DNA of 64,000 bases from Bolinopsis microptera (Eukaryota; Ctenophora; Tentaculata; Lobata; Bolinopsidae). The stretch covers positions 25,077,799-25,141,798 of the forward strand of contig NC_087072.1 in assembly GCF_026151205.1 (NCBI RefSeq). The letters are read 5' to 3'. Both the position numbers and the translations under genes were made by a program. Within the stretch, counting starts at the first letter, position 1, and each line of letters starts with the position of its first letter. Of this stretch, positions 317-42,613 are shown piece after piece. The notes beneath the pieces were generated by a model. It was not told where the DNA came from. It searched no databases and worked only from the letters and a program-made list of their open reading frames with translations.

Positions 317-3300
317 TCAATCAAAGAAATCGTCTTCATCCTCCACTGGAGGAGACACTACAGCATCATCTTTTCTCGCACTAGATCTCGTCACCCGTCT
401 CTGTAAGTGATTTTAAGTTACAGATTAAACCCTGGTTTTCGTAATCTGGCTGCCGGTTTTTGTAATTTGGCTGCCGGTTTTTTAACAGCCCTTTTCTTGA
501 TAACTCTAACCGTCTGGCCTTCTGAATTTATGTACGTGCTTTGTATAGTGTCTGTCGGTGAATCTGTCTGTCTGGAAGCCTACGAATTAAATTTCAGGTA
601 GTTTTCATGTTTAAACTGTATATACTAATAATAATCATACATCATTGTAAAGTTCGAAATACTACTGATATAATATCATAACAATAACATTATTCTAACC
701 TGTTCCGCGGCTTGTCTCTTACTAGACTTCGACTGAAAATATTTTCTAATTATAGAGTGATAATGAAATGAAAAGAAACGTGCTACTGGTCCGTGTTAAA
801 GTGTTAATAAGGGCTTGTAATCACGATTACAGACACTACGCAAATGGGCTTTACGATTTTAAACAAAATACTTTTCAGAAACAGCTTTCTCAGAGTAACC
901 AGAAACTTATAGTCTATTTTCTGCAATTTTCGGATGCTTTCTAATGGCGATGAAAGAACTTTATCAGTGACAATTACCATCTAATGAGCTTTATTTCATG
1001 TTTTAACATGGTAGATTATATATAATCACAGCGGTATGCTTAATCGTAAATCGTGAGTGAAATGCGACGACTCAGGTGAAATTCACACCGCAATGTGCAA
1101 GTTACACCTACATTAAGGCACTCCAAAAGCTGTATTGATAGTCTGGATAATTGTCCTCTGACTCGATTGACCAAGTGGGAGAAGAACTATCAGCTGCCGG
1201 ATTATCCGGCCTAATCCGGTCAACTGACTGAATTACCACCGGATTTTTTTGGGAGGTGCTTGATAGTGCCGCATACCGTGAGTGAAGTTTATTAACTTTA
1301 GATTTTTGTTTATTGTTAGTTTTACCAGATGGAATCCTAGCGGGGAATATCTGAAAAGTGGTGTTAGCAGCCTTTTTACCTCCGTACAAGACTGCTCCGT
1401 TTCGAGATAAGATATCTAATAAGATAAATTCATATAGTGCTAATTATATGTAATGTTATTGTTTTATGCAGATTAAAGTTTTGATCGACTAATAATTGCT
1501 TAGCAACTTAATTCTACAACGCGTCTTTTTGTAACGCGCGTGATAAATAGCGATAGCGATGCAAAAGTGAATATACAATTTTACTACACGCGCTACGTGC
1601 AAGTCTGTAAATTTTGAACTAAAATGGAAGATGCATCAGGTCATTTCTCATTCACTGCGAATGCCACACAGGCAATCTTAACCAAGTCATAGTACACCTG
1701 TTGAAAGGCGAATGATACAACTTTTTAGTCTAAACGACATATTAAGCGATTCTCACCAGCTGACAAATAAATCATCTGCTCAACAACATAATAGATCACT
1801 GAGTACTGTAAGGGTTAACTCCCATGTCACATTTGGAAGTTTAGCACTGCTTTTCTCTTGTCCCATTTCATACTTTCACATTACCAATGTTATGGTAAAC
1901 GAATTGGATGTGCAGCACCCGTAAATTCGAAATGGTACTAATCGAATCAAACTTAGACTACACGCACGCGGTACTGGGGTGATGTTTTCAGTTGAGCAGT
2001 ACGTGTTTTTCAGCTTTACATCTAATTTATGCAGTAAAAGTGTACGATTGTGTTGAATTGTGTTAGAAATGAGAATGCGAGGTAATTAAAACATTGATGT
2101 GTTAATTACAATAACACATCCGTCATTTCTCATGATTAACACGAATGTGCACTGTTTGTATGATGTAAAAATAGATTAGATAATTAATAAGTGAGGATAA
2201 CAGATACACAAATAGAAACAATGTAGATCTGATGTGATTACTGGTGGATGTGGTGAAGCCGTTGTAAAATAATGTAGACAGTAAATAATAACGTGGCTAA
2301 AACAGTTTGCTTATTTTCATGACAAAACAATGACATGACAGAAAATGTTGATAGATCATTCATGTTTTTTATTTTGGTCCGTTGAAGGGTTTATTTGTTT
2401 CGCTTCTCAATGAAACATTTATCAAATTAATCTAACTACAATTTATTGATTAATTGGGCCAGATTTGTGTGATCATAGCTGTCTAATTGGACTGTTGACA
2501 GTAGATGATGGCATAATATTCAACTTTGGTGCTATGATTACACATCGAATTTTGCGATGTAAGCTCTGAAAGTTGCATTGTAGACGGCAATATTATTAAT
2601 AGCATGACCACATTATATGACTTTTAAATGTTTCATCAACGCATGTACAAAGAATTTGACTGATTGTCGAAATATTTGACACTTCCTAATGTTAGCTAAT
2701 GATGGAATTTGCGCAATTTACAATAATATCGTCTGACATTTGACAATTGACAGGTTATAATGCGGCTCAAGACAAAGTTTAATAATAATGAACTTAATTC
2801 TTGTGAATAATGATGACACATATACATTAACACACACGTGCAAGCCTCAAAGTTACTCATTTCTTTCTTCACTGGAAACGAACTACACGCAGATTGAAGC
2901 CGTATAATCTCAGGACTAATTAAGAAGCAGCATAGTGCAGCCGAGAAAAATTAACGCAGTTAGATAACTTAATTTCAGCTGCTATTACTCACTTACATGA
3001 TCACATTTACTGACAGCGTGATCTAAGCTTCATGTTGGTAATATCCTGCACTCCTACTATTATTATTATAGGCCTCACCTAATACTTTGTATTCGCACAT
3101 TGTTAGTCTCGGCGTATCGTCGACAAATGGACCATTTACAGACAAATATCATCTACTTTGTTTGAGATAACATTGAAAACATCATACTTAAGACAAAGGA
3201 AAATGAACAATGAACATGAACATTTCCTAGCGGCTAGCATTCAGCCACATTGAACTATAATTTGTCTCGGCTCATTGTTTTGTGGTACTCACTGCTAAAT

Positions 3301-6300
3301 AGAACTCATCATAATATGACAGTTATACATATTACACAAGCTAAACTGAGGTTAATCACTCAACAACCACAAGTAAATGTTAGACTGTGACTAGAATGTA
3401 ATAATGTATGTAGGGCTACATTCTATAAATTACCATTGTCCTGAGCCTACACCATTCAAACAATGGTTCAGGCCATGGGTACAACTGTAGAAGGGACTAA
3501 ATGGCCAATTTATGGCCCATTTCCAAGGTAATTATAGTCAAGGTTACCGTTACCAAGGGTAACGGTATAATATACTATTTCATTTCCTGCTATCTATACC
3601 TAGAATTTAAAGTTGAGTAGAAATAACTTATTATATAGTAGTTGCAGTGGTGCTACACCTGTACGGAATGTATAAGCAATGTTATGTGACATTTTATACA
3701 AGAGTGATGTATAAAGTTATCGAATCAGCAGAGAAAACTTTTAAATTTGCAATTACATGCTTCACATAACAATCTGTGTAGATGACTGCTGATTTAACAA
3801 TCTTTGCTAAAAAACTAAAACTTCAAAGAAGCACATCACTTTACAACATGCACAACACATTGAAAAATCCGAATTAAAGTTGTTTTTTAAGATTTCCAAT
3901 TTCCCCAATTTCTAACATTTCTTCATTTATTTCAGCACACAATCACTAAACATTATTATACAGTTTCTATACATGCATTATTGTACAGTTTCTATACATG
4001 CAGCCTGCACACATGAAAGTAGCCCCCGTGCTCTCACTCACTCGCTGTTGTGGTGTGGTAACTGCCACACTATGTCGACGTGGGGTCACACTCTTTTTCT
4101 AAAATATATTCCAGTCACGTGGCCCGTCTTTCTAGTACTGGCATGCCACGACCAACAAAATAAATTTAGCGAACTAGCTTTCACCACACTATGTCAACAG
4201 TAATTTAACTGAACGTTTTGTTAATTTTAAATTTACAATTTAAGTTTGCCAGAGAAATTATGAAATTATGTTTTGTAAATTTTAAATTTGTAATTTTTAC
4301 ATCCAACACGTACAATTTCTGAATTTTGCGAGTGTTCCTCATTTAAATATAAAACAACGACAACAATTCAAATGTAGTACAGGCTAATTAGGATACCGAT
4401 GTCTTAATTAAACTGCGGTCAGTAATGAGGTTGAATGGCAAATTAAATGCCCTAAATTTGCCCACTACCAATTATCTTGCTGGTTACTTGCTGGTTACTG
4501 CGGTTATTATTCTCAGAAGTAAGACTTCCTTCACACACTAGCACAGTCAGGTGTTACAACCAATCTGTGACATATCCCTCTCACCTTTCAACATTTCAAG
4601 TATAAAATTACAGGGACATTACCAAAATAAAAGTTCATTTTCTCTGTTCTATGCGGTTATAATACATGTCGTGTATAACAATGGCACTGATGTGTATGTA
4701 TAGTTATGTCCTGTGCCTCAAGAGGCTAATCAAGTAGCACTGGCTACACGTGGTTCAGTGAGATCATTATACTATATCCGCGTAGTCAAGAAAACAACAA
4801 TTTCAAGAAAACAAGTGGCCACAACAATAACCCGGTTCAGAGATATTGAAAGTGGCCAATTACTTCGTATTAGAATTGTGATGCTTCAGAAACATGGTTG
4901 CGCAAGATGTGCATTGTCAGGCTTAGAAAACCACACTCTTAAACCTAAATCAGAATATGAAGAGAAAAGGTATATTTTCAACTTTTTACTCACTCTGTAC
5001 CGAACGAAATTTCTCTGTAAAATTCCAAAATTTAATTCTGACTAATTTCTATTATTGAATAGTGAGTCTAACAACTATTTAATAAATAGCCAACTTAATT
5101 AATGGCTAGATTCATTATTATATTTCCTACCCTACGGACTATAACCACATTCAATAAAATACAATATTCGACATTTTTATCTCCTCTAAGAAAATCGGTA
5201 CAGTTATCAGTTCCATAAACAATTGATGTGGTTCTGCAACAAATCACGGACTGTGGTTATAACTCACCGAATTCTCAAGTTCATCATCTGGAGCATAATC
5301 AGGGTCAGATTGGACACCCTCGAGATACTGATCATCTAGAGGATCTCCCAGGGGATGTTGAATCTCGTCGATGGTGGGTGGTGGCATTGACTTGGGTCTG
5401 TTCCCACGGGACTTGTGGGCTCGTCTCCTTTGCCGCGCGGCGCTCTGTTGGATAAATCGTTAGAGTGAGATGACGGAATAAGGTAAATAATAATAATATA
5501 GTAATCAAAATGCCGAGTGTATTCTATAAGTTTCCTGGTATTTAGTCATTGAGGGTGGAGGTCAATGGAAACCTAATGCAATATAAATCGTTTCCTTTAC
5601 TTTTTGATGCATTTTTAATGGTGCATTTAAGTTTCTTGCGATCTGTCAACATATAGGCTCCCCTTTGAGGCGTCTCATTGTGCAAGAATGTTGGTATTTT
5701 TGTATAATGTACGTACCCTTGACATGAAGCCTAATTACCGGTTTGTTTTAACTCAATACGAAACCTTGTTTAGAATGCCTTACGAAAAGAATGTACGCAC
5801 AGTAAAAAGTTCGTAATACTGTAATAGAAATGTCAAAGTCTAAAGTGAAGTCATAATTTCTCCGCTGACTGCGAAAATCAGGTTTATTTTACGTGAGTTT
5901 GGGACATGGGGGGACGTTAAGAATGGTAACGTTGATGGCAACCATCACGAAACATTTTAACAGTATGTGTCAGGGAGGCAAGGTGAGTACCCGCTAAATA
6001 TTTGTCGGTTAAATCCCAAAGGAATTAAGCTGTGACTGCGATGACTTTCATAGCTTCAATAGCTTGCATATTTAGAAAATACCTTCGAAAGATTTTGCGA
6101 ACGTGGGAACCGAGAAGATCGAAATTAGAGATTGTTGGGGCATGATTATCAGTTCAATCTGACCAATACAGTGCGGAATTTTTGACTTATCAAACGGTAA
6201 ATTGGTCATACCAATTACTGGAATATCTCATGCCCTGAAATAAAAACCATGGCACATGCTGTTTTTGTACCCGGCTGTGTTGCTGATTATATGATTTGTA

Positions 6301-9865: not shown

Positions 9866-11200
9866 CTAATCTGGCCAGACTGTATCGGCAGCCCAGAGGT
9901 ACTTGATCAGTTTGGCCTTAAAAGTAGAAATCCGCTCTGACTGCCGGATACATACTGGTAGACTATTCCATTTCAGCATAGATCTATGAAAAAAGCTATT
10001 TCGGAAGGCATCCGAGCAGGGCACAGTGGTACTCATGTATGTTGAAGTATCCGACATATCAATTATTTGGGCATTGTGCCTAGTGTATCGGGTGCCCTCT
10101 GGACGGCATAGGACTATATATGTAGGGAGCGAAACTGGAATTATGCTATTCACTATTTTATAGAAGGTCATAAGATCGTTATAAATAAACTTCTGTTTAA
10201 CAGGGAGAATATTTAGTTTCTTTTGCTCTGTAGCAAGTTTATCGTCATTATAACTGGAGTAAGGTTCACCATTGATCCATTTAATAGCCCTCTTTTGGAT
10301 AGCAACAAACTGTTGAAGATGAGTTGCAGATTGAGGGGACCATATGACAGAACAATGTTCAAATATAGACCTAATTAACGCTAAATAGAACGATCTTTTC
10401 TGCCTTTTATCAGTAGTGAAATGACATGTTCTCTTAAGTAGTCCAAGTCTAGAGGTAGCTTTGGAAACAAGCGCTTTACATTGTGCACCCCAATTAAACC
10501 TGGAGTTTATTGCGACTCCTAAATCTGACTGAGAGGGCACAAAGTCAATATCACTTCCAGAAAGTTTATAAAAGAAGGTATTGAATGGCAAGTTATCCAG
10601 CACGTTTCTTTGCAGGGACACAGAGAGGGCTTTGCACTTTTGTGGGTGGAACTTCATTCGATTTCTCACTGACCAATCATATAATCTGTTGATGTCATTT
10701 TGGATTATGTGATGGTCAGGGTAACCAAGGATCTCCCTCCAAATTTTAGTGTCATCTGCATAAAGGGCGATATTGGTGCCTTCAGAGACACAGGAGAACA
10801 TGTCATTTATAAATATTACAAACAATAAAGGGCCAAGTATAGAACCTTGAGGGACACCAGACCGAACTGGTAGAGAAGAAGACGTTTGGCCTCCTATCAC
10901 TACTTGTTGTTGTCGCCCCTCAAGATAGGACTTAATAAATTTAAGCATTAGTCCATCGACATTAAAAATATTCTTTAATTTACTTAAAATGAGGTCATGC
11001 GAAACACTATCAAAGGCTTTCGCAAAATCAAAATATATTATATCAGTCCTGGACCTGTTATTCAATGCAAGTGCAAGAAACAATCATCACGAAAATCTAT
11101 GTCAATGCCATAATCGCTCTCTTGAGAAAACTGCTCATAAAAATATTCGTTAAAAAGGGCAGCTTGATCAGATGGATTGTATACTACATATTTCAGTAAA
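9866..11200 (-). mobile_element. Truncated non-LTR retrotransposon, reverse transcriptase fragment (jockey/CR1-like)
   Basis: The minus strand carries a 405-codon stop-free frame (11083-9866) typical of a LINE reverse transcriptase. It shows IIYFDFAKAFDSVSH, then SGVPQGSILGPLLF, then the catalytic YADD box (ALYADDTKIW), then the GLLKRTC and FEHC blocks of the thumb region, and a natural C terminus ending VWPD. Upstream, 11194-11080 encodes an earlier part of the same protein (NEYFYEQFSQESDYGIDIDF) but in another frame; the two pieces abut with roughly 100 or more residues of the N-terminal RT domain missing between them, an estimate from the usual family spacing. No endonuclease domain is present. 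The element is 5' truncated and internally deleted, hence dead, although the remaining frame is unbroken, which suggests it is young. Confidence 0.88.
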
Positions 11201-15900: not shown

Positions 15901-16062
15901 ACAACATCATATTATTTTAATTGCCCACTTCACTTGGAGAGAATTCAGGTACGTGTGCTAATAATTGTGTACATAATTCTGATAGGAACTTTAACGAAAA
16001 TATAATACAAAATTGGTCGCAAAATTGAATATGGGATACTAAGGAGGATTATTGGGACGAAA
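15901..16062 (+). repeat. Left flanking direct repeat of the satellite
   Basis: About 160 bp that recurs at 17560-17717 with few changes; shared blocks include ACTTGGAGAGAATTCAGGTA and ACTTTAACGAAAATATAATA. The two copies bracket the 325-bp array in the same orientation. Confidence 0.8.
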
Positions 16063-17425
16063 TTGGCACATTGGTTACATCGGTTCTAAACATGCAGTGA
16101 TTCCCAAACTTGGTTTGAGTGGTCCTAGGACCAATATTAACTCTTTCCGACCAATTTTGAACAATTTTGAGCACTTTGAGGATAATGTTCATGTTTGTTC
16201 ATTTCCGTTCATTCCATAAACATGGGTAATGTTATGCGACCTTTGATGGCTCATAGGCCTAGTTTTTAACTATATCCATCTTAGAAAACCGAATTGAGGC
16301 TTCCCAGCACTCAAATACAACCAATACTTCGATGTCCCCATGTTCCAAAAATTTGCAGATACTCGGGACGATTATTGGGACGAAATTGGCACATTGGTTA
16401 CATCGGTGCTAGACATGCAGTGATTCCCAAACTTGGTTTGAGTGGTCCTAGGACCAATATTAACTCTTTCCTACCAATTTTGAACAATTTTGAGCACTTT
16501 GAGGATAATGTTCATGTTTGTTCATTTCCGTTCATTCCATGAACATGGGTAATGTTATGCGACCTTTGATGGCTGCTAGGCCTAGTTTTTAACTATATCC
16601 ATCTTAGAAAACCGAATTGAGGCTTCCCAGCACTCAAATACAGCCAATACTTATTACTTCGATGTCCCCATGTTCCAAAAATCTGCAGATACTGATCGGG
16701 ACGATTATTGGGACAAAATTGGAACATTGGTTACATCGGTTCTAGACATGCAGTGATTCCCAAACTTGGTTTGAGTGGTCCTAGGACCAATATTAACTGT
16801 TTCCGACCAATTTTGAACAATTTTGAGCACTTTGAGGATAATGTTCATGTTTGTTCATTTCCGTTCATTCCATGAACATGGGTAATGTTATGTGACCTTT
16901 GATGGCTCCTAGGCCTAGTTTTTAACTATATCCATCTTACAAAACCGAATTGAGGCTTCCCAGCACTCAAATACAGCCAATACTTCGATGTCCCCATGTT
17001 CCAAAAATCTGCAGATACTGATCGGGACGATTATTGGGACAAAATTGGAACATTGGTTACATCGGTTCTAGACATGCAGTGATTCCCAAACTTGGTTTGA
17101 GTGGTCCTAGGACCAATATTTACTCTTTCCGACCAATTTTGAACAATTTTGAGCACTTTGAGGATAATGTTCATGTTTGTTCATTTCCGTTCATTCCATG
17201 AACATGGGTAATGTTATGCGACCTTTGATGGCTCCTAGGCCTAGTTTTTAACTATATCCATCTTAGAAAACCGAATTGAGGCTTCCCAGCACTCAAATAC
17301 AGCCAATACTTCGGAGTCCCCATGTTCCAAAAATCTGCAGATACTCGGGACAATTATTGGGACGAAATTGGCACATTGGTTACATCGGTGCTAGACATGC
17401 AGTGATTCCCAAACTTGGTTTGAGT
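16051..17425 (+). repeat. Satellite/minisatellite, about 325-bp units, four full copies plus a partial
   Basis: Unit starts, marked by ATTGGGACRAAATTGG, lie at 16051, 16374, 16707, 17033 and 17356, giving periods of 323, 333, 326 and 323 bp. Units are nearly identical apart from small indels near the start (GATACTGATCGGGACG against GATACTCGGGACG). Each full unit contains the perfect 14-bp palindrome TGGTCCTAGGACCA. The 82-codon and 64-codon frames at 16294 and 17276 are by-products of the repeat and are not called as genes. Confidence 0.92.
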
Positions 17426-20289: not shown

Positions 20290-22170
20290 TTATTCCCACT
20301 AGACTACAACTATGTCACGTCATTAATAGCCAATGATAATTGCACTTTCTACGGATTCGATTATACAATTATAACTTTACTTGGCTAGCAAATCACGTGA
20401 TGTTTCTTGGATTATCACCATGGTAACTGGGAGGTGTTCAAACTCAAAAGATTTACTTTACAAACTGAGGTCTCTGTTTTAATATCCATGTTCAATGGAT
20501 AATTGAAGCTTAAATAGAAGGTACGATAAAATGTACGATTTACACAAATGGGTTCTTGTTATTATAAGCAAATCGTTCAGTAAACACTGAGTGTAAACGG
20601 ATGTATGGGAATTGGGACACACCTTAGAAACACTTAATAGCTAATCGTAGTAGCCTTACATTTAATAACCGATATATAACTGGTGTCCCTCACGTTATTA
20701 TATCAGGTCTGTTACTATGGAAACGTCCGAGGGGCTAGTTAAAGAATTCAACTTGGAAATTTAGTCACAGTTCAATAAAAATTACTGCCACTAAAAGTAA
20801 AAGCCAATGATTAGTGTTCTCTACGCATTCAATTATAACAATTTACTTGGTTAGCAAATCGCGTGACATCTCTGGAATTATCACCATGGTAACTAGGAGG
20901 TGTTCAAACTCAAAAGATTTACTTTACAAACTCAAAAGATTTACTTTACAAACTGAGGTTTATGTTTTAATACACAAATGGGTTCTTGTTATTATAAGCA
21001 AATCGTTCAGTACACACTGAGTGTAAACGGATGTATGGGAATTGGGACACACCTTAGAAACACTTAATAGCTAATCGTAGTAGCCTTACATTTAATAACC
21101 GATATATAACTGGTGTCCCTCACGTTATTATATCAGGTCTGTTACTATGGAAACGTCCGAGGGGCTAGTTAAAGAATTCAACTTGGAAGTTTAGTCACAG
21201 TTCAATAAAAATTACTGCCACTAAAAGTAAAAGCCAATGATTAGTGTTCTCTACGCATTCAATTATAACAATTTACTTGGTTAGCAAATCGCGTGACATC
21301 TCTGGAATTATCACCATGGTAACTAGGAGGTGTTCAAACTCAAAAGATTTACTTTACAAACTCAAAAGATTTACTTTACAAACTGAGGTTTATGTTTTAA
21401 TACACAAATGGGTTCTTGTTATTATAAGCAAATCGTTCAGTACACACTGAGTGTAAACGGATGTATGGGAATTGGGACACACCTTAGAAACACTTAATAG
21501 CTAATCGTAGTAGCCTTACATTTAATAACCGATATATAACTGGTGTCCCTCACGTTATTATATCAGGTCTGTTACTATGGAAACGTCCGAGGGGCTAGTT
21601 AAAGAATTCAACTTGGAAATTTAGTCACAGTTCAATAAAAATTACTGCCACTAAAAGTAAAAGCCAATGATTAGTGTTCTCTACGCATTCAATTATAACA
21701 ATTTACTTGGTTAGCAAATCGCGTGATATCTCTGGAATTATCACCATGGTAACTAGGAGGTGTTCAAACTCAAAAGATTTACTTTACAAACTCAAAAGAT
21801 TTACTTTACAAACTGAGGTTTATGTTTTAATACACAAATGGGTTCTTGTTATTATAAGCAAATCGTTCAGTACACACTGAGTGTAAACGGATGTTTGGGA
21901 ATTGGGACACACCTTAGAAACACTTAATAACTTAACACATCAGCCTTATATTTAATAACCGATATATAACTGGTGTCCCTCACGTTATATCAGGTCTGTT
22001 ACTGTGGAATAACGTCCGAGGGGCAAGTTAAAGAATTCAACTTGGAAGTTTAGTCACAGTTCATTATTTGGTAAAATGAACAGGGACTCCATGTAATGCC
22101 GTTAATAAACATTACTGCCACTGGATTACAAGTGTGTCTCGTCATTTCTAGCCAATGATTTAGATTATTA
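20290..22170 (+). repeat. Tandem array, 430-bp units
   Basis: Three nearly identical units start at about 20804, 21234 and 21664 (exactly 430 bp apart), each beginning AGCCAATGATTAGTGTTCTC. A diverged unit precedes them (about 20330) and a broken one follows (about 22094-22170). Units 2-4 carry an internal 22-bp duplication (ACTCAAAAGATTTACTTTAC) that the first unit lacks, so it arose before the amplification. Differences between units 2-4 are a few single bases. The repeated 68-codon frame in each unit is preserved by identity and is not called as a gene. Confidence 0.93.
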
Positions 22171-32012: not shown

Positions 32013-32016
32013 TTAA

Positions 32017-33211
32017 GGCCACAGGGGGGGGGGGAGGTCCGAGGTCGAAAAAACGTTTTTTGCCAGTTGGCAGACCACGTACTATCTGCCGCTTGCACAC
32101 CACCCTTAGCCCCCCAGAGCGCCTAGTTTGTCGTAAAATTGAGGTTAACTATCGCCTTTTAAATCAGTTAACCTCACAAATAACCAGTTCTTAACATTTT
32201 GTTGCTCTCATCACAAGTTAAACTTATCAATGGGTATCAATTGGCCATCCAATGTGAACAGAACTATTATATGTCCTTCATAGGTGCAGATTTCGTTTTG
32301 AGGTAAACTTTTAAGTTCCCGAGAAATTTTCTTAAGTTTGCTTTTTTTTCTCCTCGGGCACATTCGTATTGTGTAGGGTGTTTTAGGCTAAATTGAAAGT
32401 TTAATGAATTTACAAAAATGTATGGTTTGGCATAATCATTGCCTACAATCCTGACCTGAGTAATTTACCCCTTTGAGACTTTATTTTGGGTTGAAAATTA
32501 AGTTTATCGAGAGGAAGTGAAAAATCTCTGGTTCAAATTTGGATTTGAAGCCATGTTTAATTTTTTCTGTTGAGGTCAATTTTTTGCGCAGAAAGCGCTC
32601 GATTTTAGGGGAAAATATGAAATCTGCAGGGGTGATGTCCTTTATTTGTTGGAAAATTGGAAAAAACATATTTTCTCAGAATCAGTCTTTTGACTCTCCT
32701 GAACAATTTATTTACCACCTCAAAAACCTATCTTCTCCTAGAGTTTTTATCCATTTCACCTCAAATTTGGAACTTATGTTCCTGACATAAATTTAAAAGT
32801 TTGTTATGTAACGATTGTTGTAATTTTGCTCCTAACTCTTTTTATGAGGTTAACCATTTTAAATTTTGTAACCCGCACTCATTGTTAACCTCATATCTCA
32901 GATTTGGAGCAAGATATACCATAAATCGTTACATAACAAAAACTCAAAATACCTTGAGGAACATTGTTGCCAAGTTACAAGGTTCTAAGTCATAAACTGA
33001 AAAAGAAGATAGATTTTGAACACAATTTCATTTAAAGTTTTCATTTACAGTAGAATTACAGGTAAACCTCGAAATTCAACGCGCGATATCTTCAAATAGG
33101 AAACTTTGTTTTCGGTAAGGACAAAAGCATTTGAAAATTTAGATCGAGCTCTACAACATATCTCAAAATCTCAAAATTGACCTCGGACCCCCCCCCCCCC
33201 CCCCTGTGGCA
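32017..33211. mobile_element. TTAA-flanked element A, member of a GAGGTTAAC-rich repeat family
   Basis: Bounded by TTAA at 32013-32016 and 33212-33215. The left end reads GGCCACAGG plus a G run, then AGGTCCGAGGTC; the right end is its imperfect inverse (GACCTCGGA, C run, CTGTGGCA). GAGGTTAAC or its complement occurs at 32141, 32167, 32846 and 32884. An imperfect inverted repeat of about 58 bp pairs 32796-32852 with 32884-32945. It shares with element B the motif set and a subterminal GTAAACCTC / CGCGCGATATC stretch (33059-33095 here, 41220-41250 there, inverted). TTAA target use is characteristic of piggyBac-like elements, but no transposase is encoded, so the class is inference. Confidence 0.75.
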
Positions 33212-33942
33212 TTAAATTATAACAATTCTATAAACTCCATCAAATGCTTTTACGAGAGTTTCTGTACCACTTCAGCCTCAGCGAGACAATATATCTATAT
33301 CGGTAGTTGTCAAAAAGAGCTGCCTGTAAGTTTAACGCTCCTAATATAATGGAACAGTTTATGAGAGTCAACATCTATTTGTGGAAACTGAATATTAAGA
33401 GAGGTGCAATTCGCTTAAATTTAGAAATTGCAACGAACGGTCCTCATCACGATCCTATATCCTAAATCCTAGATATTATAGCCAATAATACCAGTGTTAC
33501 TAACTGCTTAACTGCTAAGACTAGGTGTGTTTCAGGAGATAAAGCACACGCGACCGCCTTATTGGGCCCAAAATTTACAACAATTTACCCCCATCAATGT
33601 TAAAATGTGTTATACTGTGGATATTGTTTAAAATTGGTTTAAAGACTTATTCAATTTGTCGCACTATGATTTGGAGAAGATTTATTCCTATAGGATGTAA
33701 TCAGTTAAATGGGTGTATGTACTTACATGATAGAGTATGTCACAGTGCAGTTTTGAGAGTTAAAACTGGTAGTTTTGTTTTGTCGGTCTGACATTTTATT
33801 TGTATCTTAGTATTTGGGCCTCTATATAATACAAAAAAGTGAGATGATGTGTAACAAGCCCTGGCCTCTGTAGCACACCTCTGCAGATTTCGTCGATTTC
33901 AGGTGCCGACAGGACCATAAAAATTAAAAGCAAACTTAAATT

Positions 33943-41100: not shown

Positions 41101-41104
41101 TTAA

Positions 41105-42609
41105 GGCCAGAGGGGGGGGTAAATGGCACTTTTGTAGTTTTTGCATATTTGATAATAGCTACTGAAGACGAACAAAAAGAAAAAAACCGGATCAAAATCT
41201 GACCTTGCGCTTCTGAGATATCGCGCGCTCAATTTTGAGGTTTACCTGTAATTACATGTTAAACTGGAACTTTAAACGGCTGTAACTTTTTTGACCTTTC
41301 GATTCCTTAGTTGAGAAAACCGGCCAATCCCTGATCTTGAGGTTTGGTACAGTGGTTCCTTGGACAATTATCCTCACATCTGGTGCAGCGATTTTTTTTA
41401 TTTGACTCTGTTCTCAAATTATGAGGTTAACCAGGTCAAAAATTCGAAAAATTTAATTGGTTAACCTCATAATTCGAGAACTGAGTCAAATAAAAAAAAT
41501 CGCTGCACCAGATATCTAGATAGTTGTCCAAGGAACCACTGTACCAAATCTCAAGATCAGGGAGTGGCCAGTTTTCTCAACTAAGGAATCGAAAGGTCAA
41601 AAAATGTGTTTTGAGATAGATGCAATTTAGTGTTTTCAAAATTTTGAATATTCACTGGAATGTATCACAGTTCGTTAGTTAGGACTTTTTATACACTTAA
41701 TAACGTTTGCTTGATCAGACCTGGCCGTTCCCTAAATGATTTTAGCCACTTTCAGTAGTTAATGTCCTTGTATTGTAAAAAATGAGGTTAACCAAGACTT
41801 CCTGTAAACACTAACTGCTTAGAATTTGGTTGTTAACCTCGCTTTAGACCATATAATAGTGGGATTGGTTTATCAATATGTTATTATATATGTAGTAAAA
41901 CATTTGCACAGTATAACGATTAAGTTTTTGAGGTTAACATGTAATTGACTGGTCAGATATTCAAAAAATGAGAGGTTAACCTCATTTTTTAGCCATTTAC
42001 GGGTAAAATCTTCTACTAAAATATGGTCAGTTCAAATCACCTTTGTCACGTGATTATAGTTGTAGGCATTGTGATACCAATAGATACCTCACTTCGATAT
42101 TGTGGTACATTACATAAGTAAGAATCGTATGTATATTCCCTACGGTACCAAAATGTGATGGTTAACCTCATTTTTTAAATTTTCCCAAGATAAAAGAAAG
42201 TCAATCGACACGTCATCTATTTAGAAATGTGTATACCGTAAACTTACGATGCAAAATAGTAACTCTATCATTTGATCTATTCTCGCTATATCTAAAAGAC
42301 GAGGTTAACCTCATTTAATCACGTTTGGATATTACTTTTTCTGATAATTATGAACCTAAAATTTAGAGTTTACATTTGCTGACCGAAATAACAAAAAATT
42401 ATGGCGTGTAATAAAATATTAACCTCAATTTTATTAACCTCAATGTTGTATAGTCAATTTTGTGAAAATCGGTTAACCTCAATTATAAAATAAAGTTAAT
42501 CAGCTACAAATATGTGAATATCGGCAATGTTTTTGTCATTCAAAATTAAATCGATTTAGAAAATAATATTTTGGTAGAATTTTTTGACCCCTTACCCCCC
42601 CCTCTGGCC
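41105..42609. mobile_element. TTAA-flanked element B, 1.5 kb, with dense GAGGTTAACCTC motifs
   Basis: Flanked by TTAA at 41101-41104 and 42610-42613. The terminal inverted repeats are perfect over 18 bp: GGCCAGAGGGGGGGGTAA at the left, its complement at the right. GAGGTTAAC, its complement or TTAACCTC occurs at about 41423, 41459, 41784, 41832, 41930, 41972, 42161, 42301, 42419, 42434 and 42471; at 41972 and 42301 both half-sites join into the full 12-bp palindrome GAGGTTAACCTC. A 145-bp inverted repeat (41288-41432 with 41459-41603) lies near the left end. No transposase frame is present, so it is non-autonomous. piggyBac-like origin is inferred from the TTAA target only. Confidence 0.85.
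41288..41603. repeat. Long hairpin inside element B
   Basis: Arms 41288-41432 and 41459-41603, mostly complementary with a few mismatches (for example GGTTTGGTACAGTGGTTCC against its complement), with a 26-nt loop. The GAGGTTAACC motif sits at the loop end of both arms. Confidence 0.9.
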
Positions 42610-42613
42610 TTAA

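Follow-up and report, generated by a model that had tools for sequence, protein, structure and literature searches.

Two elements within the window (the whole 64,000-nucleotide stretch of Bolinopsis microptera DNA that was analysed), designated A and B, are TTAA-flanked, non-coding mobile elements. Both are probably MITE-like deletion derivatives of a Kolobok-type transposon, in which the repeated copies of GAGGTTAAC would act as cis-acting subterminal recognition sites. The features of element B are listed below; its two unlike ends are termed P and Q, other loci carry L numbers and contigs C numbers.

41101-41104: TTAA target-site copy left of element B
41105-42609, forward strand: element B, 1505 bp, non-coding, P end left and Q end right
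41105-41122, forward strand: terminal inverted repeat of the P end, GGCCAGAG plus a G-run plus TAA
41237-41245, forward strand: T-variant GAGGTTTAC, about 130 bp from the P end
41287-41604: 147-nt inverted repeat, arms 41287-41433 and 41458-41604, 93% complementary
41423-41431, forward strand: GAGGTTAAC, first of the P-end pair
41460-41468, reverse strand: GAGGTTAAC, reading GTTAACCTC, second of the P-end pair
41784-41792, forward strand: GAGGTTAAC
41832-41840, reverse strand: GAGGTTAAC
41930-41938, forward strand: GAGGTTAAC, Q-end array
41972-41983: 12-bp palindrome GAGGTTAACCTC, equal to two overlapping sites, Q-end array
42161-42169, reverse strand: GAGGTTAAC, about 440 bp from the Q end, at the same place in L062
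42301-42312: 12-bp palindrome GAGGTTAACCTC, about 300 bp from the Q end, at the same place in L062 and L064
42419-42426, reverse strand: 8-mer GAGGTTAA, reading TTAACCTC
42434-42441, reverse strand: 8-mer GAGGTTAA, reading TTAACCTC
42472-42480, reverse strand: GAGGTTAAC, 130 bp from the Q end, at the same place in L062
42592-42609, reverse strand: terminal inverted repeat of the Q end
42610-42613: TTAA target-site copy right of element B

Element A belongs to another subfamily, and its features are as follows.

32013-32016: TTAA target-site copy left of element A
32017-33211, forward strand: element A, 1195 bp, with GGCCACAG ends
32141-32149, forward strand: GAGGTTAAC
32167-32175, reverse strand: GAGGTTAAC; the TTAA of the matching site in another A copy holds a nested A (L020)
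roughly 32282-32634: stretch of about 350 bp peculiar to the window copy, the other 39 scored copies being unaligned over most of its length
32846-32854, forward strand: GAGGTTAAC, P-end pair
32884-32892, reverse strand: GAGGTTAAC, P-end pair
33062-33070, reverse strand: T-variant GAGGTTTAC, near the P end
33212-33215: TTAA target-site copy right of element A

The earlier note, made from the window alone, had described B as having perfect 18-bp inverted ends between TTAA sequences, with about eleven motif copies and two full palindromes, and A as having similar ends and flanks with four copies; this description was accurate. B ends in inverted repeats that are identical over 18 bases, and it contains 11 GAGGTTAAC over both strands, with palindromes at 41972 and 42301, together with two extra GAGGTTAA 8-mers. 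Element A carries 4 GAGGTTAAC, and its right end is altered (TGCC). No recognisable protein is encoded by either element, the longest stop-free runs being 53 codons in B and 89 codons in A. The inverted ends, the lack of coding capacity and the homogeneity of the copies are those of a MITE, although the 1.5 kb of B exceeds the typical MITE length. The P-end motif pair of B forms the centre of its 147-nt inverted repeat. Most of query positions 279-619 of window A do not align with the other 39 scored copies, so that this copy has about 350 bp extra, which represent either an insertion in this copy or a deletion in the amplified form.

The genome-wide searches covered 264.65 Mb in 232 contigs, at least 13 of which are of chromosome size. 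The 18-bp terminus was matched 133 times when up to 2 mismatches were allowed, compared with 9 matches for its reversed form, and TTAA-flanked GGCCAGAG or GGCCACAG ends delimit many other copies. At least 39 copies of B besides the window copy, 95-99% identical and located on many contigs, were found among the best 40 of 437 candidates, and at least 39 further copies of A among the best 40 of 378; since the best 40 candidates were scored in each DNA search, these copy numbers are lower bounds. TTAA lies outside 74 of 78 termini (a count that includes overlapping loci), the others being TTAC (2), ATAA (1) and one end cut by the locus boundary. The termini read GGCC[A/T][G/C]A and then 5 to 40 consecutive G; this variation in length suggests slippage or assembly error.

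Insertion with TTAA duplication is seen directly in one case. In L020 an A element is split by another A, with a left junction ending in AATCAGTTAA and a right junction beginning with TTAACCTC, while window A carries the unsplit AATCAGTTAACCTC, so that the two constitute a filled-site/empty-site pair. The family is thus one of mobile elements with TTAA targets, as the earlier note had supposed. The target in L020 was the TTAA inside a GTTAACCTC motif, a single case that is uninformative on preference.

The density of the motif was analysed in the window and in the genome, with the motif word read backwards (CAATTGGAG) as the chance control. The other 61.3 kb of the window contain no GAGGTTAAC, as had been noticed, and a single GAGGTTAA, at 3348. 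The control word is missing from both A and B, even with one mismatch included; elsewhere in the window, with one mismatch allowed, the motif occurred 12 times and the control 7 times. Throughout the genome, GAGGTTAACCTC was found 248 times versus 11 for its reversed word, and GAGGTTAAC 3584 times versus 1691. GAGGTTAAC is about 540-fold denser in B than in the genome on average, and the earlier statement that its density lies far above chance is therefore upheld.

Among the first 100 GAGGTTAAC sites listed, which span 6.9 Mb of C1, 58 fell into 12 clusters, where about 0.1 chance neighbours would be expected, and 42 were isolated, compared with 44.2 expected by chance. In these 6.9 Mb, the motif is no more frequent in host DNA than chance predicts, the excess lying in clusters, and an ordinary genome-wide motif is thereby ruled out. 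The first 50 distinct GAGGTTAACCTC places listed were tallied by hand: 34 form 17 pairs separated by about 320-330 bp, as in B, 15 are single, and one, the last listed, could not be paired. Nine of the single palindromes occur in relatives that are older or diverged and have one or more ends of this kind, five in an unrelated repeat and one alone. The unrelated repeat (L029, L030, L032, L034 and L036) carries one GAGGTTAACCTC palindrome and shares its flanks.

The isolated sites bear on a rival account, in which GAGGTTAAC is the site of a host transcription or chromatin factor recruited by the elements, for germline expression or nuclear positioning, for example, rather than a site for the transposase. 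As their number is that of chance, no sign of a host regulon using the word is seen there, and the conserved spacing from the termini also speaks against such a factor. On the other hand, the sites reach about 850 bp inside the elements, beyond the 35-120 bp of piggyBac and piggyBat ends in the available account (PMC11707139), and placozoan DNA transposons with a chromatin-loop motif in their terminal repeats have been reported (PMC12221973). On balance, we consider a host factor unlikely, while according it some weight. The ctenophore chromatin-loop motif was rejected as a candidate; in the available text of the same report it is GC-rich with two CpGs, unlike GAGGTTAAC (PMC12221973).

The sites are conserved and occupy fixed places. 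At the Q end, eight or nine sites are located about 130-850 bp inside; those of B lie at 130, 298/301, 441, 627/630 and 672 bp, and those of L062 at 131, 299/302, 442, 616 and 675 bp. At the P end, the T-variant GAGGTTTAC occurs about 130 bp inside in 12 of 12 aligned rows, which are not independent, several being from one subfamily. Counted from the P end, the members of an inverted GAGGTTAAC pair lie at 308-330 and 346-368 bp in A, B, L001, L018, L041, L043, L045, L060 and L062, and both are intact in 9 of the 12 rows. The exceptions are L047, which has neither member, L044, in which one is broken, and L038, whose aligned P-end site derives from the palindrome of the other end; they indicate that not every site is needed. 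In addition, the A copies L019 and L021 lack one member of the pair. The 683-bp elements L001 and L041 are TTAA-flanked and 97.5% identical to each other, and L001 is 97% self-complementary, comprising two P ends that share one pair. The Q array is thus not strictly needed for the spread of a copy.

The survival of the motif exceeds that of its surroundings. B and L062 share 72% identity overall, at which 7 of 11 motif 8-mers are intact when the palindrome that found the L062 subfamily is excluded (9 of 13 when it is included), versus 3.9% of background 8-mers, a value that is the same for all of them and for the 459 that were matched in composition (without CpG and of like G+C); the binomial p for the excess of 7 of 11 is about 4e-8. 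Several subfamilies were found via the palindrome, and L025-L039 were picked for holding it, so that high conservation in some copies is partly selected. Repeated motifs may be favoured by the gaps of an alignment, although alignment-free positions agree as well.

A further alternative holds that the sites have no function and reflect common descent, sampling or the scars of tiny nested TTAA insertions of the form GAGGTTAA[...]TTAACCTC. The pairs of GAGGTTAA and TTAACCTC do resemble a palindrome split at TTAA, and L020 provides a real insertion into a motif TTAA. However, the motif words outlast the background with the finding word excluded; the stretches enclosed by the two B and two A pairs vary in length (17, 28, 29 and 39 bp) and, as judged by eye, in sequence; and several sites, such as those at 41930, 42161 and 42472, are unpaired. 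Sites devoid of function therefore appear very unlikely.

The conserved distances and the survival of the 8-mers fit the behaviour of a set of protein-binding sites, one of the roles proposed for the array in the earlier note. Its other proposal, an amplified operator, is less likely, the sites being not tandem and found in fixed places across subfamilies; tandem amplification of the motif is ruled out by the uneven spacing and conserved positions. Non-coding copies retain the sites despite having no gene to regulate. The fixed distances kept in these gene-less copies and across several subfamilies are most simply explained if the sites are needed for transposition.

A search with the left part of the 2.8-kb relative L045 detected L060 and L062 (1.53 kb, ten sites each) and the longer L064. 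The latter starts with TTAAGGCCACAGG, followed by the Q-end array and about 2.8 kb of coding remnants, after which the array resumes; transposase-like remnants thus lie between arrays in this one relative. The second terminus (P end) of L064 was not found, similarity stopping at about 4300. L064 belongs to the "GGCCAC" subfamily, not to that of B, and L060 and L062 represent the same subfamily without the coding interior. In L045, positions about 2669-2900 are a separate young repeat with at least 34 other copies, 97-100% identical, which adjoins tandem-repeat-like open frames.

The interior of L064 includes a zinc-finger ORF piece and C-terminal transposase-like pieces. The finger piece matches Pfam zf-C2H2 with E=0.00025, below the curated cut-off, while the transposase-like fragments have no Pfam match, PF13843 included, the remnant being a fragment. 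These pieces, which contain ...NDSWCLYK... and ...NTNMNESFNSLLW..., are considered a putative transposase on visual inspection of their residues and setting. Kolobok transposases have a zinc finger between the second catalytic D and the catalytic E; read by eye as C..SWC...H...NES, the fragments place finger-like residues ahead of a candidate E, while no region with the D residues could be located; the C/DxxH signature given in the available text of the KolobokP paper (PMC9587614) was not seen by eye in the fragment. Close copies of the fragments number only two, both damaged: C5:18846730-18848160, within L064, and C5:13967434-13969018, which is 51% identical over the joined pieces and has no GAGGTTAA nearby within stretches L066-L068. 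Two distant homologues are located at C1:25319727 and C2:21450336. The earlier note had proposed looking for a full-length relative with a transposase; the arrays of L064 do flank transposase-like remnants, but these are damaged, and no intact autonomous copy or source gene was found in the genome, only damaged or distant fragments.

As judged from sequence features, the GG...CC ends and TTAA targets fit the Kolobok superfamily, for which TTAA duplications and 5'-RR...YY-3' ends are described (PMC9587614, PMC6004289): GG...CC is present at the TTAA-flanked ends listed, and the target-site duplication is TTAA. Since the fragment has no Pfam family, the Kolobok membership that we infer is drawn from the termini and target only. 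The Xenopus T2-MITE of this superfamily is, in the available descriptions, a non-autonomous TTAA MITE like A and B, although with AGGRR ends rather than GGCC[A/T][G/C]AG and a variable G-run. Long subterminal GAGGTTAAC arrays, as in A and B, are not mentioned in the available parts of the Kolobok descriptions (PMC9587614, PMC6004289).

KolobokP resembles A and B in its RR/YY ends, animal hosts and non-autonomous copies, but it is characterized, in the available text, by long terminal direct repeats (about 450 or 660 bp), a His-Me nuclease and duplications of 3-5 bp without strong target preference (PMC9587614), versus the TTAA duplications of the present family. No long direct repeats were found in A or B, and direct alignment of the two 400-bp ends of B was no better than inverted alignment. 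No His-Me nuclease was recognised by eye in the frames of at least 90-100 aa of L045 and L064, both damaged loci, and none of five L064 frames gave a Pfam nuclease match over the cut-off. A KolobokP element with direct-repeat ends and a homing nuclease is therefore unsupported. These results also concern the suggestion that GAGG-TTAA-CCTC is cut by an element-encoded, I-PpoI-like His-Me homing nuclease, leaving TTAA overhangs, with copies gained by induced recombination. I-PpoI does cut a semi-palindromic site with TTAA overhangs, and KolobokP has a relative of it, according to the available text (PMC9587614). Nevertheless, in addition to the lack of a recognised nuclease in these frames and of long direct repeats, many of the sites are single half-palindromes, and this suggestion is hardly credible.

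The TTAA target had led the earlier note to suggest piggyBac kinship, while remarking that the termini are unlike those described for piggyBac. The remark about the termini was correct, and the kinship is not supported. The TTAA target is shared with piggyBac, the genome contains 26 matches to the piggyBac transposase PF13843, open frames among them, and piggyBac ends likewise have palindromic subterminal sites, as far as they are described (PMC11707139). However, the ends of A and B are GG...CC, versus the CC[C/T] termini of piggyBac, and piggyBac copies of this genome begin with TTAA-CCCAT where an end was seen; two of their families start with TTAA-CCCATTAGG (3 copies) and TTAA-CCCATATAA (4 copies), with one end seen and clean boundaries. 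Moreover, GAGGTTAAC occurs at none of 12 piggyBac transposase loci, with about 1.5 kb examined on each side (one locus has a GAGGTTAA 8-mer), and no PF13843 match was obtained for the fragmentary transposase-like remnant that the arrays flank. A piggyBac partner is thus disfavoured, and it is highly improbable that A and B are MITEs that arose from piggyBac and have unusual ends. The piggyBac families that combine long open frames with CCCAT ends number at least two (L048-L057), and several of their copies are 97-99% identical and thus possibly young.

Under the favoured account, that of Kolobok-type derivatives with cis-acting sites, we infer the following scheme, including which protein binds, with what stoichiometry, in what order the complex assembles and how far each site is required. 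The element-encoded transposase, via its N-terminal zinc finger, or an accessory protein would occupy single sites in monomeric form, whereas inverted pairs and 12-bp palindromes would each take a dimer. Binding would gather the two unlike ends, P and Q, into a synapse; the transposase would then cut at the GGCC[A/T][G/C]AG-Gn termini, and the excised element would join a new TTAA with a 4-bp duplication. A more speculative proposal, to which we attach little credence, is that GAGG-TTAA-CCTC serves both as the docking site of the transposase and as its preferred landing site; if so, new insertions would favour the motif TTAA of existing copies, and the transposon would be self-homing, sparing host genes and producing nested arrays.

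Arrays of short transposase-binding motifs occur at both ends of hAT elements, Tol2 and Ac/Ds, and are kept in their non-autonomous derivatives; the binder is an N-terminal zinc finger, and these elements have 8-bp duplications and other termini. They resemble A and B in their end arrays, but the motif is unrelated. The piggyBac and piggyBat systems share the TTAA target and palindromic subterminal transposase sites, which are bound by paired zinc domains (PMC11707139). The available text describes only a few such sites, located in the outermost 120 bp or so (PMC11707139), versus up to about 850 bp in A and B; the piggyBac copies of this genome also differ in their CCCAT start and probably in their transposase. 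The coral CMITEs are, like A and B, TTAA MITEs, and have an unusually conserved interior, but they measure about 100 bp, have CC[C/T]T ends, are thought to be piggyBac-derived and have no motif array mentioned in the available text (PMC2872659).

No description of how Kolobok-type transposases recognise their ends is given in the available parts of PMC9587614 and PMC6004289. The A/B family was not recognised in the literature searched, which leaves out many journals and thus constitutes no proof of absence, and the matches listed for the letters of GAGGTTAAC included no transposon paper by title. The B family is young, with well-marked, position-conserved sites and two unlike ends, and its motif arrays are recognisable as cis-acting sites through their conservation in gene-less copies. 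The minimal natural versions (the 683-bp P/P palindromes and a 593-bp form) provide a ready substrate series for binding or transposition assays.

Other features were observed in the window and at another locus. In the window, a 405-aa open frame at 9866-11083 on the reverse strand looks by eye like a non-LTR reverse transcriptase, and two tandem arrays are located at 16035-17425 (326-bp unit, 4.3 copies) and 20541-22063 (430-bp unit, 3.5 copies). Within about 20 kb of a related element, L061 contains a 980-aa open frame (2998-5937, forward strand) whose start appears by eye to be P-loop GTPase-like.
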